Shown: piece by piece, positions 21,690-64,000 of the stretch | Layout of the letters: each line of letters starts with the position of its first letter | Numbering within the stretch: position 1 is the stretch's first letter | From: Climacium dendroides | Lineage: Eukaryota; Streptophyta; Bryopsida; Hypnales; Climaciaceae | NCBI GenBank assembly: GCA_950106755.1 | Contig: OX467087.1 | Span: forward strand, 20,402,047-20,466,046 | Length of the DNA: 64,000 bases | Reading direction: 5' to 3' | Made by a program: the position numbers and the translations under genes | The notes under the pieces: generated by a model | Told to the model about the DNA's origin: nothing | The model's database searches: none | What the model saw: the letters and a program-made list of their open reading frames with translations, nothing else

Positions 21690-23876
21690 CACAATCACCA
21701 ATGAGCATCCCAAACAAAATCATGGTTTGGAAGTCAAGATGCAGTTCCAGATTCCAGGACAAGCAGCATATATGCAAGGAACCAATTCAAACAGACTGTC
21801 CAGAGGCCCGGAATAACACGTGCTTGCAATTCCTTCAGTTTTTCCAATCGATCGATCACGTGCGAGATCGGAAATCGAGATATAAATATTACCATCAAGC
21901 GAAGCAAAGACAACTGAAGACGTCCAGGACGACAAGAACCAAACTCACAAAGTACCGAACTAGTCAAGAGCCAAATCTCGGGATCCAATACAAACTTGCC
22001 CACTCAGACACCGGCCGAACCTTACCTTCAGCATGATCGAACAACCAAATGACATGCAAACTCTCGACTGCTCAAACTACGAGCTACAACTTCACGCTAT
22101 GAATCCAAACCCAGCCTGCCGACGGGAACTGCACACGCGGCCTGGCCACTGCAGTCTCCTGGGGGAAGGGTGTGGGTGGGACAATCCCACCCTCCGGCAA
22201 CGGAACTCCATAGCGGACATCGTCCATGCTTGGCCTCGTCACCATGACGAAGTCGAATTCTGGATCCTGCTCTTGCGTCTGGTCGTGGTCCACTTCCACG
22301 GCTGCGATGTCGATGAGGCCTTCAACCCCGGGGGCCACAAGTCCCGCCGCTGGGGCGGAAGCGGGTCGAGAGGGCCTGGAACGGATCGGAGTCGGCGTCC
22401 TTGGGCGTTGTGTAGCAGCGGAAGAAGGAGATGAAGAACGAGGTCCATGAGAGCGCTCGACCAGAAGCCTTAAATATTCGAGATCGGTAAGTTCCTCATG
22501 CTCGGACTCCATAGCTTCCCGATCCATGGTGACCTACCTGCAATACATGCATCACACAGAAGGAATTCCTCAGTAACTAAACACGTCCGGCTTTCCAATT
22601 CCCTGGAAATCCCAACAACGCAATGGTCCCCGGCCTTTCCTAACTGCATCACCACAAACTCTTCACTTGTGTTCGCGATCGAAATGCGCCTAATGTTTCC
22701 GGAAAGTTCTGTGGTTGCAGGGCTTGAAACTACCGTATGTGAATTAGATACTAGTTGGAGTAAACATTTCAAGGTGTCTCATCTTGTTCTCCAATTATTC
22801 CTATTGCAGAGACGACTTTGCTTGGACAATCTTGAGTGATTAGTGAAGCTGATTGGGAACCCGGCTAGCCTTTTTGTGAACATCTGCGTGACCCTCGCAT
22901 ACTTCAGCAAATTCAATGGGGTGACCACTAATTGATTAATTGGCAAACAATCTAAGGACTACTCCGCTGAGGAGTTGACGGATGATGAAGCTATGGCTGG
23001 TCGGACGCCATGGACAAGCTTGCATAATCAGAAACTTCACTGGATCCAAACTGAATTCCGTTACGTGCTAGAAAGCTGGCTTCGCAAGGCATGCAAGAGC
23101 TTGAGGATGCAAGTATGAAAAGAAAAGTCTGGATCGCAAGCAATGGAGTGAGGAGCTTACCAAAGCTTACACACAGCAAGTGCTCAGAGTGTGCGTTCAG
23201 AAGGGTCCGCAATGCATTTGGCTTGTTGCTCACATTGCCTCCCTCTTCTATAGTGAGTGTTCCCATGCGAGAATTCATGTGAAACTTTTTTCAATTTAAT
23301 TTGCCTCCTTTTCATCCAAAATAACTCCTTTTATTGTGTAATGAACTCTTGTAGCACTTGGATGTTAGGATGAAATGGTAGGTGAGAGGTGAGCTCATTG
23401 GTATTAATTATTCTTAGGCGTAGGCGTGACGCAAGAAGAGATACTGGTTGAGAAGATCTCGGAGAGGATCCTTTGATGCTCTTGTAGATAAGTAAAAAGA
23501 ACGTTTGATACAGGATTCATTGATAAAGGATCCTTTGATATTTAGTGATAATTAGATATTTATGAAGAACATCTTTTTGGATATTGAAAGAAATCTTTGT
23601 ACATTACTAGAAAATTCTGGTGATTATTTTTTTCTCAACCGTTTTGATCCCGTGACTCTATATCGTCCAATGAAATGTTTACAAAAGTGTATTGAGTGAA
23701 ATGATTCCAAAGGTCTTTTAAAACTCTAACTTGAATTCAATGTAAGAATTTTTTTTGACACAGGTCTAAGTTTGTAAATATTAGTGGAAATTTTTAAACT
23801 CAATCATTGTGAATAACTAGAAAGCTCCTTTGACTTTTTGACATTTAATTCATAATTTTAAGTAACTCTTGGATGG
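21690..23876 (-). repeat. Repeat module, copy A (inverted relative to copies B and D)
   Basis: Read on the minus strand, this module follows the same order as 32.7-35.2 kb: an AT-rich block with AAAGACCTTTGGAATCATTTCACT, then AAAGGATCCTCTCCGAGATC, CACCTCTCACCTACCATTTC, CAAGTGCTACAAGAG, a GC-richer leader-like block (ACATTGCC..., ATCCAGACTTTTCTTTTCAT), the MDRE coding region and its 3' flank. Identity is about 80-90% by eye in the GC-richer part. Positions from 23460 on also belong to the left palindrome arm. The low-coordinate edge near 21690 is where similarity to copy B fades. Confidence 0.7.
22084..22527 (-). CDS. Unrecognised repeated gene, MDRE family, copy A
   Basis: The ORF encodes 147 residues from an ATG in strong context (GGTCACCATGG), with a possible splice acceptor (TATTGCAG) 10 bases upstream. 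The first 56 residues are conserved in copies B and D: MDREAMES, an acidic HEELTDLEYLRLLVERSHG helix, then a Ser/Pro/Arg-rich linker (SSSPSSAATQRPRTPTPIR). The remainder is Pro- and acid-rich with GLIDIAAVEVDHDQ. No domain is recognised, no signal peptide or membrane segment is seen, and function is unknown. Conservation of the start region across three diverged copies, and a composition richer in GC than its surroundings, favour a real or recently real gene. The last 60 residues differ completely from copy B, so the C terminus is not fixed. Confidence 0.45.
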   Translation of the reverse strand: MDREAMESEHEELTDLEYLRLLVERSHGPRSSSPSSAATQRPRTPTPIRSRPSRPASAPAAGLVAPGVEGLIDIAAVEVDHDQTQEQDPEFDFVMVTRPSMDDVRYGVPLPEGGIVPPTPFPQETAVARPRVQFPSAGWVWIHSVKL

Positions 23877-24873
23877 CGGCAAGAGAGACCAAATGATTTA
23901 GGGAGTGTTTTGCTAAAGCTATAGATTCATTACTATGAGAACTCTGAAATGAAACGATCTTAGTTGTTGATTTGAAAAAATGATGGCTACTAACTAGTAC
24001 CACTAACTATTTGCAAGTACTGTAAAAGTACTATTTCAATTGGCAAAGAAGAGATAGTTTGTCAAAAAAAAAAAATACAACTAGGTATAAATTAATAATA
24101 ATTTATTAGAAAGTCATGAACAAAAAAACTTAAAACTAACCATTTGAAAAGATTTGATAGTGATCACATTTCACCAAAAGATGGAAATCAAAACCATCTT
24201 CAATGTTCAAAAGTGCATGCGGAAAAGAGACCTATTGGTATGAATATGGAGGTCATAAAATAATATATTTTAAAATTTTCTTATCCAAGTACATGTCTGT
24301 CCATTGTGGAAATAGACCACAAAAATTTCATCACTAAATCCTTAATTTTTAGTACCCCCTAGTATGAAAAACCCATAAACCTTGAAGTGTGATTGATGAA
24401 CTAAATTTAAATTTAAATATAAAATAATTTTTGAATTTTTATGAAAAATAAGGGATTCGAATACTATCAAGTTAGCCATCTCCAATAAAATTTTAAGGTA
24501 ATTACAATCATGCTTCAAAAGTTATAGCGGATGATAAGAGAGTCACTTTTATTGTAACAAAAATAATACCGGTCCTTCTTGCAACCACCCTGTTAATTTT
24601 TAATTCCATATTTCTTCATAAAGAGGTCTATTTGAAAGTATGCATGAATTTTTTTTTTATATTCCTTTAGATAAGTGGAAAGAAAATTTAACGTAGATCT
24701 TTAATAAATTTACTGTAGGCCAAACAAAAAACTTACCAATGGCAATAACTTAACTACTTGTAGGCTCGTTCGTAGTTTCAGTAAGACCCATGCTATACTC
24801 TTTGCCTTTTATATGCAATTAGAAAATAGACATGCAGTTCAATGCATTGCAATTCAAATATACATAATAGACT

Positions 24874-25581
24874 CTAATTGACAAACAAAGGCACATCAAG
24901 AGCATGGACATTATTACAATTGAAAGTAGAGGACCTCACTGCTATACCATCCTTTCTTGTTCTTCCCCTTTTGCCCATGGTGGTGTAATCCTTGACATAA
25001 ACACGAGCATGCACCATTTTTGTAGTCTTGGCTTTTAGCACTTCTAATCCGACACACTCATATCCAAAATTTGGGAAGTGCTCACATGGACAAACAGTTC
25101 CAACATAAGCATTTTTTGTTTTGTAGGTGACGTCAATTTCTCTACCTGCCTTTATCACTACAAAAAAGCAATGGTATAAATGACTTGTCCACAATGACTG
25201 CAAGCACAACAATGACCACAAAGTCATTGATTTGTAGTCATTGTGGATAAGAAATGACTACTACAATCATTGTAGACAAGTCATTTATATCCTTGTATTG
25301 TTGTAGTGTATGTATTAACTGGTCTACTTAGTTTCTTCTCCACAAAAGTCCCAGTTGTCATAGCAACATCAATTTTTCTTTGCTTGTGCCGTCTTCCAAG
25401 TTTGTCCCCACTCTCTAGAAAATGACCCTCTTTCATAAGTGCCATTTTTGACCAAGGATTCTAATAGGGGACAACAAATGGTCTTCCTTACGAGCTCCAT
25501 GGTTGAAACTACATTTTTGAGAATCTTGGAGTTTGCACTAAAATCTAAAGTTTTAATAAATTTTTCCATTTTTTTGAGTTG
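24874..25581 (-). pseudogene. Unrecognised broken coding region split by a CACTA miniature element
   Basis: On the minus strand two protein-like pieces face each other across a 153-bp insertion. The upstream piece (25569-25369, containing MEKFIKTLDFSANSKILKN and FSREWGQTWKTAQ) shifts frame into IDVAMTTGTFVEKKLSRPVN. After the insertion comes AGREIDVTYKTKNAYVGTV...PNFGYECVGLEVL and a Lys/Arg-rich MGKRGRTRKDG, ending in stop at 24874. The frames do not join when the insertion is removed, so this is a pseudogene or an unrecognised spliced gene. The first piece recurs, decayed, at 43700-43790. I do not recognise the protein. Confidence 0.4.
25156..25308. mobile_element. CACTA-type miniature transposon
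   Basis: It starts CACTACAAAAAAGC and ends as the complement of CACTACAACAATAC, with the terminal repeats extending imperfectly for about 43 bases through ATAAATGACTTGTC. The 3-bp target duplication TAT stands at 25153-25155 and 25309-25311. CACTA termini with a 3-bp duplication define the CACTA (En/Spm) superfamily. At 153 bp it encodes nothing and needs a transposase from elsewhere. Confidence 0.82.
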
Positions 25582-26102
25582 TACTCTCTCTGTCCCCAAT
25601 GATTTACTTGTTGAATAAGATGTATCTACTTTAGACTAAATTTAACTTTTTTAAGAGCCACTTCGTGCTATAAATAGAATTTGGTATATTCCTATTGTCC
25701 TAAGAACTTTGAGTTTTGAAGACTTTTTCAAAAAAATGGCTTCGGAGTACTAAAAAGTAGAATTCGGAGGGCATTTTTGAGGAGCATTGGTGGGCAATTG
25801 TTGAGTGTAAGGTCATCATTTTGTGGGCAATTAATACAAGACCAAGACCTTGGATGGACTTCTATTCCACCTCCTAGAGCTTTATTTCCTTCAACTAGTC
25901 AACATTGAAAGAGATTCAAAAATAAAATTAATTGACCCCTTCAATCAATTCATTTGTCTTTTGATTGATGATTGCATGGATGTAGGGAGAACTACTACTT
26001 GGAGTTGTTTTGTTTGTCTTAGAAAGCAATCAAAAGTTGAATCTAAACAATTTACAATGTCACAAAGTCTAACATGGAGATCATTTTGGGACGGAGGAAG
26101 TA
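25582..26102. mobile_element. Stowaway-like (Tc1/mariner) element, degenerate
   Basis: The left end TACTCTCTCTGTCCCCAATG and the complement of the right end (TACTTCCTCCGTCCCAAAAT) match the plant Stowaway terminus (CTCCCTCCGTCCC type) with TA at each border. The left end abuts the broken gene exactly where its relative at 43700 loses similarity, supporting insertion. The interior (25650-25850) belongs to a repeat also seen at 32150-32340 and 46080-46270, so this may be an old family with three copies. Confidence 0.5.
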
Positions 26103-26735
26103 ACCATCTAAATTCAAACTAGCTAGACATGTTGTGGATAATATGGCAAACATAGCATGGTTACTTATGAATTGAACTTAGGTTATAATGTTTGATGATA
26201 AGGATGTTAATTCCTAAAAACTCACTAAAAAGTCTATTTTTCTTTTTTAAAACTTGGATAGACACTATTGACTTTATAAATTGAAATTTTACATGAATTT
26301 ATTATGGTAGTTTCAATAGTTGTTATTATGTGAGCTAAGAATTATGAACACATAAAAATAGAAATCTATACACACAATGTGAGCCTTTAGGGTTCAAGAA
26401 TCGAATAAGTTGGATATCAATGCATGTGCAAGACTGCCTAAATATTATAGTGCTTTAGGATATTCTAATTGCTTTAATTTCATGAGCAAAATTACATGAA
26501 GTCCATAATTATGTGGAATTTCAAGTGTTTTTGAAATAGAAACTCAGTGGATAATTATCAATAGGGCTATGCAACATAATAAGTCATTGTAGACATACTT
26601 ACTCATTTATAATAACTTGTAATATATTCTTTTCGATAGAAAGTTCTTTTGAAAACATAATAAAATTTATAATAAGTCCTTAAATTCAATGACCTTCTTG
26701 TCCTCACATCCTTGCATAATAAAATGCTTTATTTG

Positions 26736-27143
26736 TCACTTACTATATGTTTTATCTAATTGCAAATAAATAAATTTTATACCCAAAATACACATTCTAA
26801 GAGCTTTCAATGCTTTCTTTCCAATGAGATCAGAGTCATAAGTGATTAAGTCATAGTATTTTGTAAAATAGGACATATTAAATCTCTTTACAATAAATGG
26901 TAGTTGCTTCTTTGGACAAGTGTTGAAATGGGAGCTAGCTATATGGGGTAACAACTCTTGTATAATACATGGGGGCATCAATTTAATAGTATAATCACAC
27001 CTTCTTGACCAAGCACAATTTGCAATAGAATGAAAAGTTGGTGAACAAAGAGAAGAGCCAATAGGGTTATAGGAATCATTTTTGGATGAAGAAGGTGTAG
27101 CAAATCTATTTTGTGTGTCATTGGTGGAGACGGTCATCAACAA
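26736..27143 (-). CDS. Unrecognised ORF, 135 residues
   Basis: This is the longest intact ORF in the AT-rich part of the arm, duplicated exactly at 60317-60724. It has a Ser/Asn-rich N terminus (TNDTQNRFATPSSSKND), then CDYTIKLMPPCIIQELLPHI and a basic, Tyr-rich end. No motif, signal peptide or membrane segment is recognised and there is no diverged homologue in the window to test conservation. It may be chance or a fragment of a transposon protein. Confidence 0.25.
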   Translation of the reverse strand: MLMTVSTNDTQNRFATPSSSKNDSYNPIGSSLCSPTFHSIANCAWSRRCDYTIKLMPPCIIQELLPHIASSHFNTCPKKQLPFIVKRFNMSYFTKYYDLITYDSDLIGKKALKALRMCILGIKFIYLQLDKTYSK

Positions 27144-27218
27144 AAAATGATAACAATGATGATGAAATCGGAAGTGGAGTTAGGGGTGACAAAATCAACT
27201 TGTTTTTATAGTAAATAA

Positions 27219-28001
27219 CTAGCAATTAGCTACACATTCATCATTAGAATTTCATTAGAATTTTTATATATTAGATAGAATGCAAAGTAAGAATTTCAAT
27301 AAATCTTTAGATAAAAATGACTAAAATCTTCATATAATTTTTTTTTATAAATAAGCATATACTGAAATAAATAATAAAAATTTAATGAATGATGAATGAA
27401 ATACATGCAATGATGAATACGATAAAAGATACACATACATTAAATGCATTAGAAATTTGACTCAATTGTTACAGCAATCCAAATAGAAAAATTTAAAGGA
27501 AAAACTTGTAAATGTCAAAAGCTTCGTGAACAATTTAATTGTTGTGAAATCTAAAATTGGTTCAATCGAATAAATTTCTCAAATCATTTGGTAGTAGCAA
27601 TAGAAAATAGAAAATTGAAATTAGAAGCTCAAAGCTCACAAAAGCACAAAATCATAGAAATGCAAAAGAAGTATAAAGCCAAAAAAAGCAATGGAATTGG
27701 TACCTTTATGATATCACCATATTGATTCTCTTTAATATCACCTCAATTGCAACGACTATATTATTTCTATAATATCATCCTTTGTAAAAAGTGATATTAC
27801 AGAGGTGATTGTGAACTCCTACTCTATTTCAGTAATATCACATTGTGTGAAAATATGATTTCTATGTATGCATGATTGGAAATGTTTTTATAAAATAAAT
27901 AAAATTGATACAATGAATGCATAGCATAGCAAGCACAAGCCCCTAGTACTAAAGGTAGCATTTGTGATAGTACAGAGGGACTTATGATTTTCGTAGTATG
28001 A
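27219..28001 (-). mobile_element. Non-autonomous Helitron, copy 1
   Basis: On the minus strand it begins TCATACTACG and ends TAGCTAATTGCTAG, flanked by A on the 5' side and T on the 3' side, with no target duplication. TC at the start, CTAG at the end, a terminal hairpin (TAGC...GCTA) and insertion between A and T are the Helitron hallmarks. It is about 85% like the element at 29761-30508 along its length and carries about 95 extra bases of GATATTA-rich repeats (27700-27800). It has no Rep/helicase, so it is non-autonomous. Confidence 0.72.
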
Positions 28002-29375
28002 TGATGTACCACTGTTCTCCACAACATCTACAAAAATCTACTTTTTTGGACTAGCTGCCTGTTGACATCTTCATTTTTTGTAGAACACCATATGTTAGTA
28101 GTCAAATGCAAGCAAAAACGTAGGTTTTTTGTAATGCAAGAGAGTATATTTAACTCACAAAGTCTTCTACACATCCATTCTTGAGCACTAGAGGAGAACA
28201 ATCAAGGACAAGAAGGTTTTATAGCAAATATATATTGTGCCAAATGGGAGCCACGATGTCCTTATTCTTTAGAGAATGGGCTTGTAGTGAAGAAGGTGTG
28301 ACTATTGCTAATAAGAGCAAAACAAACTACATACTTCAAATTTGTTAATTATTAATCATCTTAAAATATTAGAAGAAGACAAAGCTAGTGTTCAAATTTC
28401 AAGCTAACAAATTCCAATACCAATTTGACTAGTAGTAATACTGGTATGTGTACTACTTCACGTTAGGTCAAAAACATGAAAACCATGAAAGTATGACCAT
28501 TCCTTAATTTCTATTAAAATCCAATTTTACCAACTACTTTTTATGATAGAATTCTAGATAGTATTGATGCATAGCAAGTTTTCCAAGAATGATGTCCAAT
28601 GTGATTAAGGTTTGCAATGTTCATGCATGTGATACTATCAATGTCCAATTTGATCTTGGTGAGGGGAAATCAAAGAATTTAATTCTTGCATCACCACATA
28701 GGCTACCTAAATGTCAATTAATCACTAAATGCTCCATTAAAATAGTTAGGTGGTGAATGGTCATGGATACTAATACATAACTTCTTAAGCATGAATAATC
28801 AAATGCAATGAATGCCATAGTGAAGTCAAATAATTGACAATATTAGATCATGGATCTTTTCACAAGATAATGAAATCCAATGTTTTAGTTTAAGTTTTTG
28901 GACCAATGATTATACATGTGGCCTTTCTTTTAAGTAGGTTCTTAGTTCCATGCTTCTTCATTTGGGGGGCTTGAATTGAAGGAGTCCAATTCTAAACATA
29001 AAATTTTGATTATGTAACTTTTGTATGTAGTTTTTGTATGTGCTACATCTATATGATGATTGAAATGAGGTTTTGAAAACTTTGTGGCAATGGTATGTAG
29101 GATCATGACTAGTCTACAATTTTAAACCTCTTTTCTACATACTTAAGCTATTCATTTTCATTTAGGCAAGTAGACATTAAATTGACGCCCTCACAACTAA
29201 TAAAACCTTATTAGACAAGCTAGTCACCATAGAAGTGTGGAACTCATTTTTGCAAGTCTTGCATAAACCATTTGCTTCAAGACGTCCAAAAACACTCATT
29301 AGGGGTCAAACTAATGTGCAAGTTCTCCCCTTTCTACAAAAAATCCCCAAAGATGAATATTGCTCTTCTATCCTT

Positions 29376-29591
29376 CACTAGAAGAAACCAAAATTTTTGA
29401 TGTCTAAGGGAACGGATTTTAGGTGACGTTGAAGAAAACAACCCATGTTTTTCTGACAACAATTATCTCCACTGGACATCATTATTGACATGAAAAATAT
29501 AGGTTGTTTTTTTCAACGTCACCTAAAATCCGTTCCCTTTGACGTCGATTGTTTTTTTGAATGTCACCTAAAACAAGGTTTTCTTATAGTG
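29376..29591. mobile_element. CACTA-like miniature element with internal fold-back
   Basis: The termini CACTAGAAGAAACC and (complement) CACTATAAGAAAACC fit the plant CACTA consensus, and CTT stands on both sides (29373-29375, 29592-29594) as a 3-bp duplication. Inside, about 48 bases from 29407 (AAGGGAACGGATTTTAGGTG...) are nearly the complement of 29490-29541, so the centre can fold into a long hairpin. The related site in the spacer (44412) lacks this insert, though flanking bases there also resemble CACTA, so the exact left border has some doubt. Confidence 0.65.
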
Positions 29592-29760
29592 CTTCAAAGA
29601 TTCATTGACAAAGGACTTTTGTGGTAACATTCAAGGATTTAGAAATAAGCAAATCTAATCATTTTAAAAGAACTTCGAGGGTCTTGATTGCTCTCCATTG
29701 TTTGACAAAATTCTCTTATTATAAATTCTTAAAATGACTTTTTGGTGGTCAAAACTATTA

Positions 29761-30508
29761 TCATACCACTAAAATCATAACTCCCTCTATAATATCACAA
29801 ATGCTACCATTAATACAAGGGGCTCATGCTTGCTATGCTATGCATTCATTGTATCACATATTAGTAAAATTTTGATATATTCGAATAGAATGCATGATAA
29901 TGATTTCAATAAGTCTTTAAAATAATTTTCTTAAATATTTTATACAAATGTTTTCAATTATGCATACATAAAAATCGTATTTTCACACAATGTGATGTTA
30001 TAGAAATAGAATAGCAGTTTGCAATCATTGCTTTTCTTGGCTTTATATTTCTTTTGCATTTCTATAATTTTGTGCTTTTGTGAACTTTGAGCTTTTGATT
30101 TCAATTCTCTATTGCTACTACCAAATGATTTGAGGAATGTATTAGATTGAACCAAATTTGGATTTCACAACAATTAAATTGTTTACGAAGCTTTTGAGAT
30201 TTACAAGTTTTTCCTTTAAGTTCTTCTATTTGAAAGCCATTGTTTGTAACAATTGAGTCAAATTTTTAATGAATTCTAATGTATGTGTATCTTTTACCAT
30301 ATTCATCATGCATGTATTTCATTCATCATTCATTAAATTTCTTTGGTTTATTTTAGTATATGCATATTTATAAAAAAATTACATCAAGATTTTGTCATTT
30401 TTATCTAAAGATTTATTGAAATTCTTGCTTTGCATTCTATCTAATACATAATAAAATTTAATGAAATTCTAATGGTGAATATGTAGCATAGCAAGCGCAA
30501 ACCGCTAG
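29761..30508 (+). mobile_element. Non-autonomous Helitron, copy 2
   Basis: It starts TCATACCACT after an A, ends AGCGCAAACCGCTAG before a T, and has no target duplication. The stem AGCG/CGCT at the 3' end replaces TAGC/GCTA of copy 1, a paired change that keeps the hairpin. The spacer copy of this locus (44580-44610) reads straight through CAAAACTATT..GATTGATA, giving an empty site that fits insertion between A and T. No coding capacity. It lies in opposite orientation to copy 1. Confidence 0.8.
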
Positions 30509-31249
30509 TGATTGAGATAAAATTATAGCATTTGATTCTTCAAAATGTCTTTTTTCCTACTAAGTACAATCTTACAACCTACATAATAAATAAAAGAGTT
30601 AGTACCTTCTTCATGAATTAGAAAAGTTAAGAAAATGCCTACCTTAAGAGTGTTTCCAAGGCAGATTGAATTCACTTGACCCTTGTGACTTTATCCCATT
30701 TAAATTTGGAAATGAAATTCAAGTTAGTAGAAGATGTTGTATTTAACTAAAATTTAATTCATGGGACCATCAAATGCACATTTGGGTTTGTTGTAAGAAA
30801 CAATGCCAAATTGCCAATTCATTTTGTGCTTGAAAGGATAGTAGTAAGCACTATGACCTTCTACAAAATAACTAAATTAGAAATTGAAAATAAAGAAAAC
30901 TAGGATTTTCTCTATCAATAATGTATCTTCAAAATCTTGACATTAGAATAAAATTCTAACTTAATGTATTAGTTTGGATTTAATTGATATTTATCATAGT
31001 CAATAATTACTTGCCAAACCAAAAATCTAGTATGATCCCAAACTAATGTAAAGGAAAGAACTTTGAGTATGATAAATGCATCACTATCTCTATTAAAGTT
31101 CTTTTTAATTATTCCCAAGGATATCAATTATCAAAGGATCTTATGAGGCATTTTTTCTCGTATACCAAACTATTCAAGGCAAGCTTCACAAAGGTCTTGA
31201 AAGGCTTTTTTGAGGATCAAAGCCTAAAAATTTGAATTGGTCGTTGAAC

Positions 31250-31690
31250 AAGTGAAGTTCAAGAGTCATTTGCAATGGTTCCAAAGACTTTTCTATGATA
31301 TCCACAAACTAAGAGTTGTGTCAAAAGGTTTTTGCACTTAGTATTCACAATTGAAGAGTATCAAAGGACTTCTAAGGCACTTTTTCTCATTGCATTATAT
31401 ATACTTATAAGGTCAATACCAATGACTTCACTTCTCCACCATTTAATTCCAACATCCAAGTATAAAAAGAAAATACTAGATGAAAAAATGTGTTATTTTG
31501 TTTTTATGAAAAGGTGACGTATTGAAAGGAAAAAACAAAGACCAATGAAAATGATCAATACTTCAAGTGAATTTTACAAAGCCGCACATACCCTCATCAC
31601 CTTGCCACAAAGCCGCATATACCCTCTATCATCACCTTGCCACAAACACAAATGAATACCTTAACTGGTGCAAGTTTGAATTTGATCCCT
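31250..31690 (+). repeat. Intra-arm inverted repeat, member 1 (partner 35270-35650)
   Basis: CAATGGTTCCAAAGAC..., ATATCCACAAACTAAGAGTT, CCAACATCCAAGTAT and CACCTTGCCACAAA...AATGAATACCTTA occur here in the plus direction and at 35270-35650 in the complement. Within it, 31581-31650 holds a short tandem duplication of AAAGCCGCA(C/T)ATACCCTC..CACCTTGCCAC. Another plus-direction copy is at 45240-45680. Confidence 0.65.
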
Positions 31691-34716: not shown

Positions 34717-35269
34717 GACGGATTCGGGGTCTCACGAGCTAGCTCTAGTTCGCCATGCCGAACGCTTCTTCGACTGTTTGTTGTGCAAGCGTGGAGGCAG
34801 AGTTGTAGGTCGTAGTTTAAGCAGTCGAGCTTCTGCATGTCATTTGGTTGTTCGATCATGCTGAGGGTTCGGCCGGTTTCTGAATATGTATTGGATCCCG
34901 AGGCTTGGCTCTGGACTAGTTTGTTACTTTGTGAGTTTGGTTCTCGTCGTCCTGGACCTCTTCAGTTCTGTTCGCTCGATGGTAATCCATCTATTTCGAT
35001 TTCCGATCTTGCACATGATCGATCGATTGGAAAGAAAGACTGAAGCGATTGCACGTGTTATTCGATCGGAGCCTCCGGACAGTCTGTTTGAATCGGTTCC
35101 TTGCATTCCTTGCATATATGGTGCTTGTCCTGGAGTCTGGAAATGTAACTTGTCTTCGAAAGGATGATTTTGTTTGGGATGCTCACTCGCGACTGTGTCA
35201 ACCTCTACCAGCCTGCATTTTGCATTTTGCCTTTGATGTCTGTGCATGATTTTCTGGACAAGAATTAAG

Positions 35270-49090: not shown

Positions 49091-49096
49091 AGGTGA
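48932..49096 (+). pseudogene. Truncated MDRE-family gene, copy D
   Basis: It has the same GGTCACCATGG start and TATTGCAG site. It encodes 54 residues, MDRKAMESEHEELTDLEYL..., almost identical to copy A for 50 residues (SHGPRSSAPSSSATQRPRTP), then LLKR and stop where the module breaks off. Loss of the C-terminal half makes it a likely pseudogene. Confidence 0.6.
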
Positions 49097-52743: not shown

Positions 52744-53337
52744 CTATTCTCTGGGTTTGAAGCCCCAGGGTGGAAGAGGATACAGTAAAACCCAACCCCA
52801 GTATTCCGACCAAACCCAGTATTCCGACATGAGCTTCACTTCGCACGGCCACGGCCAGGTCCATAGCTGCTGCTCTTGGTCGCGTCGTCTGCCTTCTGCT
52901 GGCTGGTCATGGTTCACGTCCATGGCTGCGACATCGATGAGGCGTTCAAGCCCGGGGGCTAGAAGTCCCCAGGGGGCCAGAAGTCCCAAGGGGGCGGAAG
53001 CGGGTGGGGGGTAGGCTCGTGACAATCGAGAGGGCCTGGAAAGGGTCCGAGTCGGCGTCCTTGGGGGTCGTGTTGCACCGGAAGAAGGAGCTGAAGAACC
53101 AAACCCATGAGAGAGCTCGAGCAGAGTCGGCGTTCTTGGGGGGCGAGTTGCAGCGGAAGAAGGAGCTGAAGAACCAAATCCATGAGAGAGCTCGAGCAGA
53201 GTCGGCGTCCTTGGGGGGCGTGTTGCAACGGAAGAAGGAACTGAAGATCGAGATCCATGAGAGAGCTGGAGCAGATGCAGTAAACATTCGAGATCAGTAA
53301 GTTCGTCATGATCGAACTCCATAGCTTCCCGATCCAT
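52744..53337 (-). CDS. Unrecognised repeated gene, MDRE family, copy B' (mirror)
   Basis: Identical to the 197-residue ORF at 34123-34716, in the right arm on the other strand. The three-unit 75-bp repeat is mirrored at 53050-53274. If the gene is real, the palindrome doubles its dose and provides a template for arm-to-arm correction. Confidence 0.45.
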   Translation of the reverse strand: MDREAMEFDHDELTDLECLLHLLQLSHGSRSSVPSSVATRPPRTPTLLELSHGFGSSAPSSAATRPPRTPTLLELSHGFGSSAPSSGATRPPRTPTRTLSRPSRLSRAYPPPASAPLGLLAPWGLLAPGLERLIDVAAMDVNHDQPAEGRRRDQEQQLWTWPWPCEVKLMSEYWVWSEYWGWVLLYPLPPWGFKPRE

Positions 53338-56300
53338 GGTGACCTACCTGCAATACATGCATCTCACAGAAGGAATGCTTCAGTAATTATTCCGACTTTC
53401 CAATTCCCTGGAAATCCCAACAACAAAATGATGCAACCTGCATCGAATGGTCCCCTTCCCTGACTCCACAACCACAAACTCTTCACCTGTGTCCGTGATC
53501 GAAATGCGCCTAGTTTTTACGGAAAGTTGTGTGGGTGCAGGGTTGAAACTACCGTAAGTAACTAAGGAACTAGCTAGAGTAACAAATTAAAAGGTGTCTC
53601 ATCTTGTTCTTCAATTATTCCTATGGCACAAACGAACGACTGTGCTTTGACAAGAGTGAATGAAGCTGATTGGGAACCCGGCTAGCCTTTGGGTGAACAT
53701 CTGGGTGACCTTCACATACTTCAGCAAATGGGTTGACCAATAATTGATTAACTGACAAACAGTCGAAGGACTACTTCGCCGTGGAGTTGACGGATGATGA
53801 AGCTATGGCTGGTCGGACGCCATGGACAAAGCTGGCATAATCAGAAACATGACTCGATCCAAACTGAACTCCATTACCCGCTACAAAGCTAACTCAATAC
53901 ATCAAGGATGATCAACAGAAGCCACGCAAATCGCAGCTGGAGCAATCGGAACCGCAAGGCATGCAATTGCAAGACATAGAAGATGCGAGTATGAAAAGAA
54001 AAGTCTGGATCGCAAGCAATGAAGTGAGGAGCTTAGCAAAGCTTACACAATGCAGGTGCGCAGAGCTTGCGTTCAAACGTGAACAAGAGCAAGAGCCACA
54101 GCAGAGAAGAGGGAGACTCTCGGGAGCAGGAAGTGTCCGCAATGCAATTGGTTCGCCGCTCACATTGCCTCCCTCTTCTATAGTTTTCCCATGCAAAAAT
54201 TTGAGTGAAACTTTTCTTCAATTGGATTTGTCTCCTTTTCATCCAAGATAACTCCTTCTATCCTGTAATGAGCTCTTGTAGCACTTGGATGCGGGGATGA
54301 AATGGTAGGTGAGAGGTGAGGTCATTGATATTAATGAACCGTTTGCGTAGGCGTGACGCAAGAAGAGATAGGGGTTGAGAAGATCTCAAAGAGGATTCTT
54401 TGATGCTCTTGGCAAGTGAGTGAAAAGAACGTCTTGGACAGCCAGGTCTTCATTCATAGATGTGTGAAGAAATCTTTACAAATCACTAAAAGTTTTTTGA
54501 TTGTTTGGCCCTAAAGTGTTTTGATCCCTTGACCCTAGCCATAGAAATTGTTTTCACATGAGTGCAATTAATGAAAATGATTGCAAAGGTCTTTTAATAC
54601 TCTAACTTGAGGATAATTAAGAAATTTTTGACACGGGGCTTTGTAGATACCAATGAAAACCTTTAGAATCATTGATTGAGAATGATTAGAAAGTATTTTA
54701 ACTCTTAATCATTAATCCACATTTCTTTGTAGAAGGGTCTATTAGAAAGTATGCAGTAGAAAATGGCATGAGAAGATTGTTTGATACTATTGTAGATAAG
54801 AGTGAAAAGAACATATTTAGCATAGATCTTCATATATAGATATCATAGAAAAATCTTTAGAATTATGGAAAATTAATGACTAGATGATCTTTTGATTGGT
54901 AAGTTTATTGAGTTTTTGAAAAATTTATCCTTGGCCCTTTTAAAACTTGAAGAAGATGGAAACTTAGAAAAATATGTTTCTTCACATTTCCAATGATTTT
55001 GGTTATTTTCAATGGATTGATTCTTTTTAAAATTACTAATAATAGTTTCTACATTAGTTATATTGAAAAGAAGTAGCCAATAAACATTATGAAAAATAAG
55101 GATTTTGTAAAATTACCTTCAATATCTCCTACAAAATGACAACCTTGCACTCAAAATTTTGTAGTCCACCCATACTCTTTAAAATTGCCCAAACATTTCT
55201 ACTTTTTAATATTCCAAGACTAAAATTTGAAAAGCATTGTAAATCTTGAAGTTTTTAAGATGCTAGGAATATACTAAATTCTACCTACAAAATGAAATGG
55301 TTTTTTTCATGTAACCTTTAACTTTATTTAGGGACATTTCATCAAAGAAGAAGATCATTTGGGGATTGAGGAACTGAGGAAGTAGTTTAGAAAAACAAAA
55401 GTAGAAGGTTTGATTACTCCTTTCTATGTGATAAGATTCTATTATTATAAGTTTTTCAAATGATTTATGAGTGCCCCAAACTATCATAATTGAGATAAAA
55501 ACTTCAAGAGTTGAATTTTCAAAATGTCTTCTTTCCTATTATGATCTTGCATCTGATATAATAAATAATGGACTTGCTCATTATTGACAAAATCATTAAG
55601 AAAGTATTGGCGAACTCAGAACTTTTTCTTCAGATTCACTTGACCTTGTCGGGGACTTCATTTGATTTCTTAAATGAGTGAAATATAAGTTGAAACATGG
55701 TTTGGCATTTTTGATTTCAAGTTCTCTTCTTCCAAAATGGAGGTTTGGGTCCCACTATTACTGAAAAGAAGGGATCAAATTCAAACTTGCACCAGTTAAG
55801 GTATTCATTTGTGTTTGTGGCAAGGTGATGATAGAGGGTATATGCGGCTTTGTGGCAAGGTGATGAGGGTATGTGCGGCTTTGTAAAATTCACTTGAAGT
55901 ATTGATCATTTTCATTGGTCTTTGTTTTTTCCTTTCAATACGTCACCTTTTCATAAAAACAAAATAACACATTTTTTCATCTAGTATTTTCTTTTTATAC
56001 TTGGATGTTGGAATTAAATGGTGGAGAAGTGAAGTCATTGGTATTGACCTTATAAGTATATATAATGCAATGAGAAAAAGTGCCTTAGAAGTCCTTTGAT
56101 ACTCTTCAATTGTGAATACTAAGTGCAAAAACCTTTTGACACAACTCTTAGTTTGTGGATATCATAGAAAAGTCTTTGGAACCATTGCAAATGACTCTTG
56201 AACTTCACTTGTTCAACGACCAATTCAAATTTTTAGGCTTTGATCCTCAAAAAAGCCTTTCAAGACCTTTGTGAAGCTTGCCTTGAATAGTTTGGTATAC

Positions 56301-56951
56301 GAGAAAAAATGCCTCATAAGATCCTTTGATAATTGATATCCTTGGGAATAATTAAAAAGAACTTTAATAGAGATAGTGATGCATTTATCATACTCAAAGT
56401 TCTTTCCTTTACATTAGTTTGGGATCATACTAGATTTTTGGTTTGGCAAGTAATTATTGACTATGATAAATATCAATTAAATCCAAACTAATACATTAAG
56501 TTAGAATTTTATTCTAATGTCAAGATTTTGAAGATACATTATTGATAGAGAAAATCCTAGTTTTCTTTATTTTCAATTTCTAATTTAGTTATTTTGTAGA
56601 AGGTCATAGTGCTTACTACTATCCTTTCAAGCACAAAATGAATTGGCAATTTGGCATTGTTTCTTACAACAAACCCAAATGTGCATTTGATGGTCCCATG
56701 AATTAAATTTTAGTTAAATACAACATCTTCTACTAACTTGAATTTCATTTCCAAATTTAAATGGGATAAAGTCACAAGGGTCAAGTGAATTCAATCTGCC
56801 TTGGAAACACTCTTAAGGTAGGCATTTTCTTAACTTTTCTAATTCATGAAGAAGGTACTAACTCTTTTATTTATTATGTAGGTTGTAAGATTGTACTTAG
56901 TAGGAAAAAAGACATTTTGAAGAATCAAATGCTATAATTTTATCTCAATCA

Positions 56952-57699
56952 CTAGCGGTTTGCGCTTGCTATGCTACATATTCACCATTAGAATTTCATT
57001 AAATTTTATTATGTATTAGATAGAATGCAAAGCAAGAATTTCAATAAATCTTTAGATAAAAATGACAAAATCTTGATGTAATTTTTTTATAAATATGCAT
57101 ATACTAAAATAAACCAAAGAAATTTAATGAATGATGAATGAAATACATGCATGATGAATATGGTAAAAGATACACATACATTAGAATTCATTAAAAATTT
57201 GACTCAATTGTTACAAACAATGGCTTTCAAATAGAAGAACTTAAAGGAAAAACTTGTAAATCTCAAAAGCTTCGTAAACAATTTAATTGTTGTGAAATCC
57301 AAATTTGGTTCAATCTAATACATTCCTCAAATCATTTGGTAGTAGCAATAGAGAATTGAAATCAAAAGCTCAAAGTTCACAAAAGCACAAAATTATAGAA
57401 ATGCAAAAGAAATATAAAGCCAAGAAAAGCAATGATTGCAAACTGCTATTCTATTTCTATAACATCACATTGTGTGAAAATACGATTTTTATGTATGCAT
57501 AATTGAAAACATTTGTATAAAATATTTAAGAAAATTATTTTAAAGACTTATTGAAATCATTATCATGCATTCTATTCGAATATATCAAAATTTTACTAAT
57601 ATGTGATACAATGAATGCATAGCATAGCAAGCATGAGCCCCTTGTATTAATGGTAGCATTTGTGATATTATAGAGGGAGTTATGATTTTAGTGGTATGA
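56952..57699 (-). mobile_element. Helitron copy 2, mirror copy
   Basis: Mirror of 29761-30508; CTAG at 56952-56955. Because it is identical and in the same place in the arm, it was present before the inverted duplication and is not an independent insertion. Confidence 0.78.
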
Positions 57700-57868
57700 T
57701 AATAGTTTTGACCACCAAAAAGTCATTTTAAGAATTTATAATAAGAGAATTTTGTCAAACAATGGAGAGCAATCAAGACCCTCGAAGTTCTTTTAAAATG
57801 ATTAGATTTGCTTATTTCTAAATCCTTGAATGTTACCACAAAAGTCCTTTGTCAATGAATCTTTGAAG

Positions 57869-58084
57869 CACTATAAGAAAACCTTGTTTTAGGTGACATT
57901 CAAAAAAACAATCGACGTCAAAGGGAACGGATTTTAGGTGACGTTGAAAAAAACAACCTATATTTTTCATGTCAATAATGATGTCCAGTGGAGATAATTG
58001 TTGTCAGAAAAACATGGGTTGTTTTCTTCAACGTCACCTAAAATCCGTTCCCTTAGACATCAAAAATTTTGGTTTCTTCTAGTG
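57869..58084. mobile_element. CACTA-like miniature element, mirror copy
   Basis: Mirror of 29376-29591, starting CACTATAAGAAAACC at 57869, with the same CTT flanks in complement. Confidence 0.63.
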
Positions 58085-59458
58085 AAGGATAGAAGAGCAA
58101 TATTCATCTTTGGGGATTTTTTGTAGAAAGGGGAGAACTTGCACATTAGTTTGACCCCTAATGAGTGTTTTTGGACGTCTTGAAGCAAATGGTTTATGCA
58201 AGACTTGCAAAAATGAGTTCCACACTTCTATGGTGACTAGCTTGTCTAATAAGGTTTTATTAGTTGTGAGGGCGTCAATTTAATGTCTACTTGCCTAAAT
58301 GAAAATGAATAGCTTAAGTATGTAGAAAAGAGGTTTAAAATTGTAGACTAGTCATGATCCTACATACCATTGCCACAAAGTTTTCAAAACCTCATTTCAA
58401 TCATCATATAGATGTAGCACATACAAAAACTACATACAAAAGTTACATAATCAAAATTTTATGTTTAGAATTGGACTCCTTCAATTCAAGCCCCCCAAAT
58501 GAAGAAGCATGGAACTAAGAACCTACTTAAAAGAAAGGCCACATGTATAATCATTGGTCCAAAAACTTAAACTAAAACATTGGATTTCATTATCTTGTGA
58601 AAAGATCCATGATCTAATATTGTCAATTATTTGACTTCACTATGGCATTCATTGCATTTGATTATTCATGCTTAAGAAGTTATGTATTAGTATCCATGAC
58701 CATTCACCACCTAACTATTTTAATGGAGCATTTAGTGATTAATTGACATTTAGGTAGCCTATGTGGTGATGCAAGAATTAAATTCTTTGATTTCCCCTCA
58801 CCAAGATCAAATTGGACATTGATAGTATCACATGCATGAACATTGCAAACCTTAATCACATTGGACATCATTCTTGGAAAACTTGCTATGCATCAATACT
58901 ATCTAGAATTCTATCATAAAAAGTAGTTGGTAAAATTGGATTTTAATAGAAATTAAGGAATGGTCATACTTTCATGGTTTTCATGTTTTTGACCTAACGT
59001 GAAGTAGTACACATACCAGTATTACTACTAGTCAAATTGGTATTGGAATTTGTTAGCTTGAAATTTGAACACTAGCTTTGTCTTCTTCTAATATTTTAAG
59101 ATGATTAATAATTAACAAATTTGAAGTATGTAGTTTGTTTTGCTCTTATTAGCAATAGTCACACCTTCTTCACTACAAGCCCATTCTCTAAAGAATAAGG
59201 ACATCGTGGCTCCCATTTGGCACAATATATATTTGCTATAAAACCTTCTTGTCCTTGATTGTTCTCCTCTAGTGCTCAAGAATGGATGTGTAGAAGACTT
59301 TGTGAGTTAAATATACTCTCTTGCATTACAAAAAACCTACGTTTTTGCTTGCATTTGACTACTAACATATGGTGTTCTACAAAAAATGAAGATGTCAACA
59401 GGCAGCTAGTCCAAAAAAGTAGATTTTTGTAGATGTTGTGGAGAACAGTGGTACATCA

Positions 59459-60241
59459 TCATACTACGAAAATCATAAGTCCCTCTGTACTATCACAAAT
59501 GCTACCTTTAGTACTAGGGGCTTGTGCTTGCTATGCTATGCATTCATTGTATCAATTTTATTTATTTTATAAAAACATTTCCAATCATGCATACATAGAA
59601 ATCATATTTTCACACAATGTGATATTACTGAAATAGAGTAGGAGTTCACAATCACCTCTGTAATATCACTTTTTACAAAGGATGATATTATAGAAATAAT
59701 ATAGTCGTTGCAATTGAGGTGATATTAAAGAGAATCAATATGGTGATATCATAAAGGTACCAATTCCATTGCTTTTTTTGGCTTTATACTTCTTTTGCAT
59801 TTCTATGATTTTGTGCTTTTGTGAGCTTTGAGCTTCTAATTTCAATTTTCTATTTTCTATTGCTACTACCAAATGATTTGAGAAATTTATTCGATTGAAC
59901 CAATTTTAGATTTCACAACAATTAAATTGTTCACGAAGCTTTTGACATTTACAAGTTTTTCCTTTAAATTTTTCTATTTGGATTGCTGTAACAATTGAGT
60001 CAAATTTCTAATGCATTTAATGTATGTGTATCTTTTATCGTATTCATCATTGCATGTATTTCATTCATCATTCATTAAATTTTTATTATTTATTTCAGTA
60101 TATGCTTATTTATAAAAAAAAATTATATGAAGATTTTAGTCATTTTTATCTAAAGATTTATTGAAATTCTTACTTTGCATTCTATCTAATATATAAAAAT
60201 TCTAATGAAATTCTAATGATGAATGTGTAGCTAATTGCTAG
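59459..60241 (+). mobile_element. Helitron copy 1, mirror copy
   Basis: Mirror of 27219-28001; here the element reads in the plus direction from TCATACTACG to TTGCTAG. Confidence 0.7.
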
Positions 60242-60316
60242 TTATTTACTATAAAAACAAGTTGATTTTGTCACCCCTAACTCCACTTCCGATTTCATCA
60301 TCATTGTTATCATTTT

Positions 60317-60724
60317 TTGTTGATGACCGTCTCCACCAATGACACACAAAATAGATTTGCTACACCTTCTTCATCCAAAAATGATTCCTATAACCCTATT
60401 GGCTCTTCTCTTTGTTCACCAACTTTTCATTCTATTGCAAATTGTGCTTGGTCAAGAAGGTGTGATTATACTATTAAATTGATGCCCCCATGTATTATAC
60501 AAGAGTTGTTACCCCATATAGCTAGCTCCCATTTCAACACTTGTCCAAAGAAGCAACTACCATTTATTGTAAAGAGATTTAATATGTCCTATTTTACAAA
60601 ATACTATGACTTAATCACTTATGACTCTGATCTCATTGGAAAGAAAGCATTGAAAGCTCTTAGAATGTGTATTTTGGGTATAAAATTTATTTATTTGCAA
60701 TTAGATAAAACATATAGTAAGTGA
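60317..60724 (+). CDS. Unrecognised ORF, 135 residues, mirror copy
   Basis: Identical to the ORF at 26736-27143. No motif recognised; may be chance. Confidence 0.25.
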   Translation: MLMTVSTNDTQNRFATPSSSKNDSYNPIGSSLCSPTFHSIANCAWSRRCDYTIKLMPPCIIQELLPHIASSHFNTCPKKQLPFIVKRFNMSYFTKYYDLITYDSDLIGKKALKALRMCILGIKFIYLQLDKTYSK

Positions 60725-61357
60725 CAAATAAAGCATTTTATTATGCAAGGATGTGAGGACAAGAAGGTCATTGAATTTAAGGACTTATTATAAATTTTAT
60801 TATGTTTTCAAAAGAACTTTCTATCGAAAAGAATATATTACAAGTTATTATAAATGAGTAAGTATGTCTACAATGACTTATTATGTTGCATAGCCCTATT
60901 GATAATTATCCACTGAGTTTCTATTTCAAAAACACTTGAAATTCCACATAATTATGGACTTCATGTAATTTTGCTCATGAAATTAAAGCAATTAGAATAT
61001 CCTAAAGCACTATAATATTTAGGCAGTCTTGCACATGCATTGATATCCAACTTATTCGATTCTTGAACCCTAAAGGCTCACATTGTGTGTATAGATTTCT
61101 ATTTTTATGTGTTCATAATTCTTAGCTCACATAATAACAACTATTGAAACTACCATAATAAATTCATGTAAAATTTCAATTTATAAAGTCAATAGTGTCT
61201 ATCCAAGTTTTAAAAAAGAAAAATAGACTTTTTAGTGAGTTTTTAGGAATTAACATCCTTATCATCAAACATTATAACCTAAGTTCAATTCATAAGTAAC
61301 CATGCTATGTTTGCCATATTATCCACAACATGTCTAGCTAGTTTGAATTTAGATGGT

Positions 61358-61878
61358 TACTTCCTCCGTCCCAAAATGATCTCCATGTTAGACTTTGTGA
61401 CATTGTAAATTGTTTAGATTCAACTTTTGATTGCTTTCTAAGACAAACAAAACAACTCCAAGTAGTAGTTCTCCCTACATCCATGCAATCATCAATCAAA
61501 AGACAAATGAATTGATTGAAGGGGTCAATTAATTTTATTTTTGAATCTCTTTCAATGTTGACTAGTTGAAGGAAATAAAGCTCTAGGAGGTGGAATAGAA
61601 GTCCATCCAAGGTCTTGGTCTTGTATTAATTGCCCACAAAATGATGACCTTACACTCAACAATTGCCCACCAATGCTCCTCAAAAATGCCCTCCGAATTC
61701 TACTTTTTAGTACTCCGAAGCCATTTTTTTGAAAAAGTCTTCAAAACTCAAAGTTCTTAGGACAATAGGAATATACCAAATTCTATTTATAGCACGAAGT
61801 GGCTCTTAAAAAAGTTAAATTTAGTCTAAAGTAGATACATCTTATTCAACAAGTAAATCATTGGGGACAGAGAGAGTA
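61358..61878. mobile_element. Stowaway-like element, mirror copy
   Basis: Mirror of 25582-26102. In this orientation the TACTTCCTCCGTCCCAAAAT terminus is read directly at 61358. Confidence 0.48.
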
Positions 61879-62586
61879 CAACTCAAAAAAATGGAAAAAT
61901 TTATTAAAACTTTAGATTTTAGTGCAAACTCCAAGATTCTCAAAAATGTAGTTTCAACCATGGAGCTCGTAAGGAAGACCATTTGTTGTCCCCTATTAGA
62001 ATCCTTGGTCAAAAATGGCACTTATGAAAGAGGGTCATTTTCTAGAGAGTGGGGACAAACTTGGAAGACGGCACAAGCAAAGAAAAATTGATGTTGCTAT
62101 GACAACTGGGACTTTTGTGGAGAAGAAACTAAGTAGACCAGTTAATACATACACTACAACAATACAAGGATATAAATGACTTGTCTACAATGATTGTAGT
62201 AGTCATTTCTTATCCACAATGACTACAAATCAATGACTTTGTGGTCATTGTTGTGCTTGCAGTCATTGTGGACAAGTCATTTATACCATTGCTTTTTTGT
62301 AGTGATAAAGGCAGGTAGAGAAATTGACGTCACCTACAAAACAAAAAATGCTTATGTTGGAACTGTTTGTCCATGTGAGCACTTCCCAAATTTTGGATAT
62401 GAGTGTGTCGGATTAGAAGTGCTAAAAGCCAAGACTACAAAAATGGTGCATGCTCGTGTTTATGTCAAGGATTACACCACCATGGGCAAAAGGGGAAGAA
62501 CAAGAAAGGATGGTATAGCAGTGAGGTCCTCTACTTTCAATTGTAATAATGTCCATGCTCTTGATGTGCCTTTGTTTGTCAATTAG
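61879..62586 (+). pseudogene. Unrecognised broken coding region, mirror copy
   Basis: Mirror of 24874-25581, with the protein pieces on the plus strand and the same CACTA miniature element in the middle. The shared lesion shows it was already broken before the inverted duplication. Confidence 0.4.
62152..62304. mobile_element. CACTA-type miniature transposon, mirror copy
   Basis: Mirror of 25156-25308, with the TAT-derived duplication (ATA in this orientation) on both sides. Confidence 0.8.
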
Positions 62587-64000
62587 AGTCTATTATGTAT
62601 ATTTGAATTGCAATGCATTGAACTGCATGTCTATTTTCTAATTGCATATAAAAGGCAAAGAGTATAGCATGGGTCTTACTGAAACTACGAACGAGCCTAC
62701 AAGTAGTTAAGTTATTGCCATTGGTAAGTTTTTTGTTTGGCCTACAGTAAATTTATTAAAGATCTACGTTAAATTTTCTTTCCACTTATCTAAAGGAATA
62801 TAAAAAAAAAATTCATGCATACTTTCAAATAGACCTCTTTATGAAGAAATATGGAATTAAAAATTAACAGGGTGGTTGCAAGAAGGACCGGTATTATTTT
62901 TGTTACAATAAAAGTGACTCTCTTATCATCCGCTATAACTTTTGAAGCATGATTGTAATTACCTTAAAATTTTATTGGAGATGGCTAACTTGATAGTATT
63001 CGAATCCCTTATTTTTCATAAAAATTCAAAAATTATTTTATATTTAAATTTAAATTTAGTTCATCAATCACACTTCAAGGTTTATGGGTTTTTCATACTA
63101 GGGGGTACTAAAAATTAAGGATTTAGTGATGAAATTTTTGTGGTCTATTTCCACAATGGACAGACATGTACTTGGATAAGAAAATTTTAAAATATATTAT
63201 TTTATGACCTCCATATTCATACCAATAGGTCTCTTTTCCGCATGCACTTTTGAACATTGAAGATGGTTTTGATTTCCATCTTTTGGTGAAATGTGATCAC
63301 TATCAAATCTTTTCAAATGGTTAGTTTTAAGTTTTTTTGTTCATGACTTTCTAATAAATTATTATTAATTTATACCTAGTTGTATTTTTTTTTTTTGACA
63401 AACTATCTCTTCTTTGCCAATTGAAATAGTACTTTTACAGTACTTGCAAATAGTTAGTGGTACTAGTTAGTAGCCATCATTTTTTCAAATCAACAACTAA
63501 GATCGTTTCATTTCAGAGTTCTCATAGTAATGAATCTATAGCTTTAGCAAAACACTCCCTAAATCATTTGGTCTCTCTTGCCGCCATCCAAGAGTTACTT
63601 AAAATTATGAATTAAATGTCAAAAAGTCAAAGGAGCTTTCTAGTTATTCACAATGATTGAGTTTAAAAATTTCCACTAATATTTACAAACTTAGACCTGT
63701 GTCAAAAAAAATTCTTACATTGAATTCAAGTTAGAGTTTTAAAAGACCTTTGGAATCATTTCACTCAATACACTTTTGTAAACATTTCATTGGACGATAT
63801 AGAGTCACGGGATCAAAACGGTTGAGAAAAAAATAATCACCAGAATTTTCTAGTAATGTACAAAGATTTCTTTCAATATCCAAAAAGATGTTCTTCATAA
63901 ATATCTAATTATCACTAAATATCAAAGGATCCTTTATCAATGAATCCTGTATCAAACGTTCTTTTTACTTATCTACAAGAGCATCAAAGGATCCTCTCCG

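Follow-up and report, generated by a model that had tools for sequence, protein, structure and literature searches.

The window, a 64,000-nucleotide stretch of the moss Climacium dendroides (C35:20402047-20466046), contains two long inverted arms, here called A and R, on either side of a spacer, with recognisable genes in the left flank. When 10 + 60 open reading frames (ORFs) were compared with Pfam, strong matches were confined to the three left-flank genes; all other matches were weak (E 0.0006 and above), with Taq-exonuc (E 0.0006) and IQCJ-SCHIP1 (E 0.006) appearing in the 60-ORF scan. The flanking GST and BFN proteins have best matches of 92% and 94%, and their named relatives come from Ceratodon (74 and 75%), Physcomitrium (73 and 64%) and, for BFN only, Sphagnum (53%). 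These relatives identify the locus as moss DNA, in agreement with a first-pass annotation that had taken it for nuclear plant DNA. The nearest named Ceratodon relatives of the two proteins carry 2G and 6G tags, and M758_6G021500 and M758_6G021300 are near neighbours by number. We read these tags as numbered autosomes, in which case the flanking genes look autosomal in Ceratodon. No tRNA gene was found in the window at the threshold used and no Rfam family at the gathering score; with a contig of 33.5 Mb, this is not the profile of a plastid inverted repeat.

The arms gave little sign of coding content. The best arm ORFs, 34117-34713 and 22087-22533 (the latter in repeat unit U1, described below), had no Pfam match at E ≤ 0.1 and no NCBIfam match. 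The U1 ORF had no PDB match, and no homologue of 34117-34713 was present at E ≤ 0.001 among 718 candidates from a search of 5.8 billion proteins. In an alignment of U1 with unit U2 judged by eye, most changes in the shared ORF start alter the residue, and the version in unit U3 stops soon past this start.

Extent and identity of the arms

The first-pass annotation had proposed that positions x and 87460-x are complementary over 23460-36519 and 50941-64000. All of the tested sites pair in this way (13,050/13,050, 23470-36519), while ten neighbouring coordinate sums gave only 28-32% pairing, and a match by chance is excluded. Pairing is free of mismatches over 13,060 bp (23460-36519 versus 50941-64000) and, going inward from 23460, first fails at 36520, exactly at the inner edge first described. 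The reported run of 12 A is present at 24064; the same stretch has three other A/T runs of at least 8 and no C/G run of at least 7.

Extension past position 64000, which had been advised as a way to find the outer border, placed that border beyond the window; the earlier limit was merely the window end. Arm A spans 21314-36794 (C35:20423360-20438840, + strand) and arm R spans 50666-66146 (- strand, 66146 being C35:20468192), of which 50666-64000 lies in the window. The spacer between them (36795-50665, 13,871 bp) includes their inner flanks and U3. Each complete arm is 15,481 bp, and the two differ by 8 substitutions and no gaps (99.95% identity). Seven of the 8 substitutions fall in the innermost 275 bp. 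The eighth, at position 23418, is alone in the outer 15,206 bp and lies just outside the range first noted, where R carries the derived state as judged by the paralogues aligned at that site. From there to the outer end, over 2,104 bp (21314-23417), A and R are identical. Large inverted arms of more than 99% identity are a feature shared with palindromes of the sex-chromosome type.

Homology continues past 36519 into a diverged inner edge, at 36520-37006 in A (+) and 50195-50940 in R (-), where A, R and the nearby copy B show roughly star-like divergence. Identity between A and R drops stepwise, from 97.5% over 36520-36794 (7 differences in 275) to ~91.7% beyond 36794 as far as 37006/50195 (18 in 216), and homology then stops. 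The edge falls inside a dispersed repeat of ~320 bp (36466-36787). R alone carries a 255-bp insert (50411-50665) with imperfect inverted ends (26 bp, 84.6%) that looks MITE-like.

We consider it improbable that an assembly artefact placed a single true arm twice, even though the identity is perfect over 13 kb and the arm length equals that of many single long reads. The inner flanks of A and R differ at 25 sites and by the insert, which means that both inverted loci are real at that point, and one substitution separates the arms themselves. The inner flank of R is an older homologue of B, and ~98 bp of its outer flank match a fourth copy, C. Haplotype duplication is also less likely if the sequenced moss tissue was haploid. 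A hairpin read would give a mirror copy with a near-zero spacer and no flanks of its own; here the flanks are diverged and the 13.9-kb spacer does not fit.

A local cluster of older copies

The first-pass annotation had overlooked the third and fourth copies, as well as where the arms really end on the outer side and how they diverge at the inner edge. B is an older, partial inverted copy beside the arms (66262-80016, - strand), and C is a direct copy (+) 193 kb from A, with pieces 81-91% identical. Identity between A and B changes by segment from 84.8 to 100 (2,081 columns), 95.4, 99.2 and 87.6%. The perfect tract, at 33276-35356 (+) in A, is 2,081 bp long and matches B 75246-77326, which lies outside the window, and R 52104-54184 at every position. 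Its G+C is 0.496, against 0.26-0.31 in its surroundings, and its divergence is 22% from U1 and 14% from U3. A segment of the spacer, 37023-40263 (+), is 96.4% identical to B 68070-71325 in inverted orientation and contains a perfect 559-bp tract at 39666-40224. With mismatches treated as independent, 0 of 20,000 shuffles matched the 2,081-bp run inside the high-identity part, and likewise 0 of 20,000 matched the 559-bp run in the remaining part.

Similar steps appear among the repeat units. U1 (21690-23870, -) lies within arm A, inverted relative to U2 (32767-35197, +), the stretch of the same arm collinear with it, and U3 (44301-49081, +) lies in the spacer. In 150-bp bins, U3 is 89-98% identical to U1 over 48250-49081 and 70-87% in the adjoining sequence. 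The U2 of A is 96-98.5% identical to the U1 of C over 33100-33700, and after 34100 it is nearer to the U2 of C. Several levels of divergence are displayed together in the cluster, at about 80%, 90%, 96% and 100%.

A search with a 711-bp core found 8 near-full copies, only at C35:20424435-20628959, within the cluster. In a local control of 324 kb, with cluster limits set at 21300-80100 and 211000-227500, 9 of the 55 repeat pairs of at least 800 columns lay wholly outside the cluster, none of them above 973 columns or 91.6% identity. The arms include short dispersed repeats, as would suit a nest of dispersed elements or a giant transposon whose terminal inverted repeats are long, but we find such an origin scarcely credible. 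The 60 ORFs of at least 75 codons between 17.2 and 51.0 kb include no transposase, reverse transcriptase or integrase domain, and the one arm piece tested had full or near-full matches only at A, R and C among the matches listed. Searches with one piece of the arm and one of the core thus did not find the dispersed full-length copies of a TIR or LTR transposon, and the ORFs did not show its element proteins.

The flanks bear on the relative age of A and R. Sequence at 49080-50093 (+), in the inner flank of R, is a direct 93.6% copy of B 71527-72526 and is absent at the corresponding place in A (37020/37023); over 49080-50410 as a whole, R is 93.6, 89.0 and 86.9% homologous to B. On the outer side, 66147-66181 falls in a 169-column match to C (95.9%) and 66179-66241 matches C over 63 bp (98.4%); together they make up the ~98 bp common to R and C. 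Within this flank, 66195-66241 has an additional 87% match at 91165-91211. Beyond it, 66242-66825 matches C at 80.6% but A 41147-41724 better, at 87.9%. Homology between A and C ends at 21314, and the flank of A at 19000-21313 matched no other copy apart from a simple-repeat-like match of 60-75 bp. R appears to be an old copy, because it has an inner flank in common with B and ~98 bp of outer flank in common with C, whereas the end of A is a sharp junction with DNA absent from the other copies. A plain new inverted duplication of A into a place that held no earlier copy is very improbable. It would account for the near-zero divergence of A and R, and the outer-flank match of R to C is short and may have another cause, but the 1.3-kb inner flank of R shows old homology to B and to the inner edge of A, so an earlier copy already stood at this place.

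Probable homogenisation of the arms

In this one sequence the copies are old yet the arms have been homogenised, as seen in the divergence at the inner edge, the age of R's inner flank and the perfect tracts within diverged alignments. Identity between copies that differ in divergence shifts in sharp steps along collinear alignments. On these sequence patterns, we somewhat favour a local repeat cluster that trades sequence by ectopic homologous recombination, in which the last event copied ~15 kb, probably from R to A. This event would have begun when a broken end within A's inner flank paired with its inverted homologue, the inner flank of R. Copying of R would then have run outward for ~15.2 kb, in a long-tract manner like break-induced replication, and the copied end would have been joined to unrelated DNA at 21313, turning arm A into a near-perfect mirror of R. 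The shorter tracts would reflect the same traffic, namely the 2.1-kb and 0.56-kb tracts of A and B and the exchanges of U1 with U3 and of the U2 of A with the U1 of C. The direction is judged from one outer junction and the ~98 bp common to R and C, which an R-C exchange could also have supplied. A single long copy is favoured by the sharpness of the outer edge, and several events are suggested by the step to 97.5% at the inner one.

A less likely, though still appreciable, possibility is a palindrome at steady state. Arm A, including its end at 21314, would then be old, and the likeness of A and R would be maintained by numerous short conversions between the arms, as Y palindromes are. The conversion-like tracts of 0.5-2.1 kb in the cluster and the stepwise fall of identity at the inner edge are consistent with this. 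However, 21314-23417, where conversion should reach least, is without difference, and decay is seen at the inner edge and not at the outer. Of the three origins first offered for the palindrome (duplication, conversion or artefact), recombination between pre-existing copies is thus supported by B, C, the mosaic identity and the flanks of R; a fresh duplication to a copy-free place is contradicted and an artefact unlikely.

Palindromes in other genomes

The first-pass annotation placed large palindromes mostly in animal Y chromosomes and plastid genomes. This is too narrow, as a published account describes palindromes W.P1 and W.P2 with gene conversion among arms on the W chromosome of the willow Salix purpurea (PMC7023750). 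As in the moss, the willow locus has long arms (~20 kb, averaging >99%), several arm copies in both orientations and a partial extra copy, the pre-arm (PMC7023750). The W.P1 spacer is 3.6 kb in the paper's table or 2.6 kb in its text, against 13.9 kb in the moss (PMC7023750). The willow cluster is female-specific with named genes, whereas no domain-bearing gene was found in the moss arms and their neighbours look autosomal in another moss. In the ampliconic palindromes of the human Y, intrachromosomal gene conversion likewise keeps the arms nearly identical (PMC7023750). Unlike the moss palindrome, these are much larger, have testis genes in their arms and lie on a non-recombining chromosome. 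Inverted duplications in yeast can form by foldback priming at double-strand breaks (PMC10622511). Synthesis that proceeds from a break along an inverted template likewise yields a mirror copy, but the yeast end folds on itself, whereas the template supposed for the moss lies 14 kb away in an inverted copy that already existed. Among the papers listed in the literature searched, mostly without subscription papers, none was seen to describe a comparable moss palindrome, which shows little. Inverted repeats also figure in a paper on the sex region of Populus, with 19 mentions.

The moss palindrome is a further case of the known palindromes with gene conversion, as in the willow W and the human Y. 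The usual explanation for palindromes with arm-to-arm conversion is that they rescue genes on chromosomes without crossing-over. Mosses are amenable to experiment through homologous recombination. We take the arms to be passengers of recombination. More speculatively, ordinary autosomal low-copy clusters in recombination-proficient mosses may build palindromes, extend them and make their arms alike through long-tract copying, while the converted core drifts to high G+C; palindromes kept alike by recombination would then be no special adaptation of sex chromosomes. A local cluster without recognised genes, whose neighbours have Ceratodon relatives tagged with numbered chromosomes, would suggest that recombination mechanics alone can build palindromes.

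Extent and inner edge of the palindrome

The first-pass annotation described an exact inverted duplication in which position x pairs with 87460-x. This pairing held at all 13,050 of the 13,050 positions tested, and sums adjoining 87460 gave pairing of only 28-32%. The 12-A run that had been singled out is present, at 24064, and going inward the first mismatch is 36520, as claimed. The window occupies C35:20402047-20466046. With 200 kb of flank added to it, the left arm (A) spans 21314-36794 and the right, inverted arm (R) 50666-66146, and they differ by 8 substitutions and no gaps over 15,481 bp. Seven of these substitutions fall in the innermost 275 bp, nearest the spacer; the outer 15,206 bp contain one, at 23418. 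Since the repeat units U2 (in the arm) and U3 (in the spacer) and an older inverted partial copy beside R (B) share A's base there, with one further paralogue gapped, the new base is carried by R. By hand arithmetic at the Arabidopsis substitution rate of 7e-9 per site, this single outer difference corresponds to about 4,700 years or generations (Poisson range roughly 120 to 26,000). The whole A-R alignment comprises 15,693 columns with 26 differences, and its longest identical run, 13,101 columns, was matched by none of 20,000 shuffles of those differences.

Past 36794, A-R homology continues for ~212-216 bp with 18 differences before the sides diverge fully, and at this edge R holds an insert of 255 bp whose ends are imperfect inverted repeats. 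Private changes in A, R and B numbered 5, 2 and 8 over 36520-36790 (271 sites) and 7, 9 and 9 over 36791-37006 (210 sites), which is the pattern of three lineages apart for some time rather than of a copy and its source. Divergence steps up from 0/13,060 to 7/275 (Fisher p = 1.5e-12) and from 7/275 to 18/216 (p = 0.006), with cut points set after the data were seen. The edge sits within a roughly 320-bp dispersed repeat. Upon searching the genome (412.6 Mb, 123 contigs), 42 of 46 inner-edge matches were confined to this repeat; beyond it only A, R and B were recovered among the matches reported (40 of 1008 candidates scored).

Further copies and the order of the arms

B (66262-80016) is inverted relative to A and partners 30569-41724, while a direct copy, C, lies at 214641-227299, its pieces of at least 300 columns being 81-91% identical to A. 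Arm piece 25300-26700 gave full or near-full matches at A, R and C only, and 37 of its 41 matches were short dispersed repeats inside the piece (40 of 1133 candidates scored). A search with the core at 33560-34270 gave 16 matches, eight near full length and every one on this contig within 20424435-20628959 (9 of 9 candidates scored), with identities of 100% in A, R and B, 91 and 89% at two places in C, 84% in U3 and 83% in unit U1 of either arm. As far as this search sees, the core family is restricted to about 204 kb. An ~870-bp dispersed element lies beyond the window at 72524-73391, 111516-113264 and 211316-212199; arm A has related sequence within 27229-28005 and 29757-30509, and B has the element at a site where R is without it. 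Another element beyond the window, at 152367-153192, pairs in inverted orientation with itself (872 columns, 72%).

The inner flank of R, 49080-50410, is directly homologous to B (93.6, 89.0 and 86.9%). Its outer flank matches C at 66147-66181, inside a 169-column match at 95.9%, and at 66179-66241 (63 bp, 98.4%); 82 bp between these matches occur in C only, and 66195-66241 is also 87% like 91165-91211. The next stretch, 66242-66825, is weak evidence, as it is closer to A 41147-41724 (87.9%), where it is counted as the start of B, than to C (80.6%). A-C homology ends at 21314, and A's outer flank, 19000-21313, showed no likeness to any copy except simple-repeat-like 60-75 bp inside C. Judging from these flanks, of which R's inner flank is the best evidence, R's place already held a copy when the two arms turned identical, and the outer junction of A is probably the derived one. 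Misassembly would have to mimic two inverted loci, each with its own diverged inner flank, one of them common to B; we consider it unlikely, keeping a small probability for it, as assemblers struggle most with perfect arms this long.

Mosaic identity among the copies

The best segmentation of the A-B alignment gave 84.8% identity over 30569-33275, 100% over 33276-35356 (2,081 columns), 95.4% over 35357-38928 and 99.2% over 38929-40224, followed in order by 87.6%, a poorly aligned 43.5% and 89.0%. None of 20,000 shuffles reached the 2,081-column perfect tract within the high-identity part (largest 573), nor the 559-bp perfect tract in the remainder (largest 390). Selection accounts poorly for the perfect block, as this block differs from U1 by 22% (373/1676) and from U3 by 14% (129/929). 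U1 and U3 agree at 89-98% over 48250-49081 but 70-87% over 47500-48250; A's U2 matches C's U1 at 96-98.5% over 33100-33700, and past 34100 is closer to C's U2 than to C's U1. Identity that shifts in steps like these along collinear alignments is the signature of gene conversion. G+C of the 33276-35356 tract is 0.496, compared with 0.26-0.31 in the DNA flanking it in both A and B, and is also raised in the U1 (0.45) and U3 (0.39) stretches; biased conversion or an old exon may account for this G+C-rich core. Three 75-bp tandem repeats at 34185-34411 and at 53049-53275 are in frame within an ORF for which a homologue search gave none, and are absent from U1. A 302-bp foldback element (76%) occupies 40668-40969, where A-B identity collapses.

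Origin and setting of the palindrome

The asymmetry between a homologous, stepwise inner edge and an outer edge that breaks off abruptly into unrelated DNA is in keeping with one long copying event. This would begin with pairing of inverted homologues at the inner edges, proceed by break-induced-replication-like synthesis of A's arm on R as template, and end by joining to unrelated DNA, leaving A's sharp outer edge. Possibly, an older arm A was instead kept like R by repeated short conversions. Both are plausible given the facile homologous recombination reported for Physcomitrella (PMC4990234).

The source of the window is moss. Left of A are a glutathione S-transferase (GST) gene (12723-13448; 74% Ceratodon, 73% Physcomitrium, best match 92%) and a bifunctional nuclease (BFN) gene (16693-17421; 75% Ceratodon, 64% Physcomitrium, 53% Sphagnum, top match 94%, among the best 120 of 489); by Pfam scan, 3682-6933 also holds an ORF resembling glucan water dikinase. 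Ceratodon M758_6G021500 (GST) and M758_6G021300 (BFN) lie close together going by tag number, and on that basis the 12723-17421 neighbourhood seems retained on Ceratodon chromosome 6. The closest Ceratodon matches of both genes carry 2G tags (for BFN, among the best 120 of 489); GST relatives further removed are tagged 2G and 3G. Going by their names, these tags probably denote numbered chromosomes, hence autosomes.

The palindromes described for the willow W have a 20-kb sequence in four arms at >99% identity and a pre-arm that is partial, and they show signs of conversion (PMC7023750). The moss palindrome works like the willow W palindromes, a placement made by mechanism and not by sex-chromosome class.
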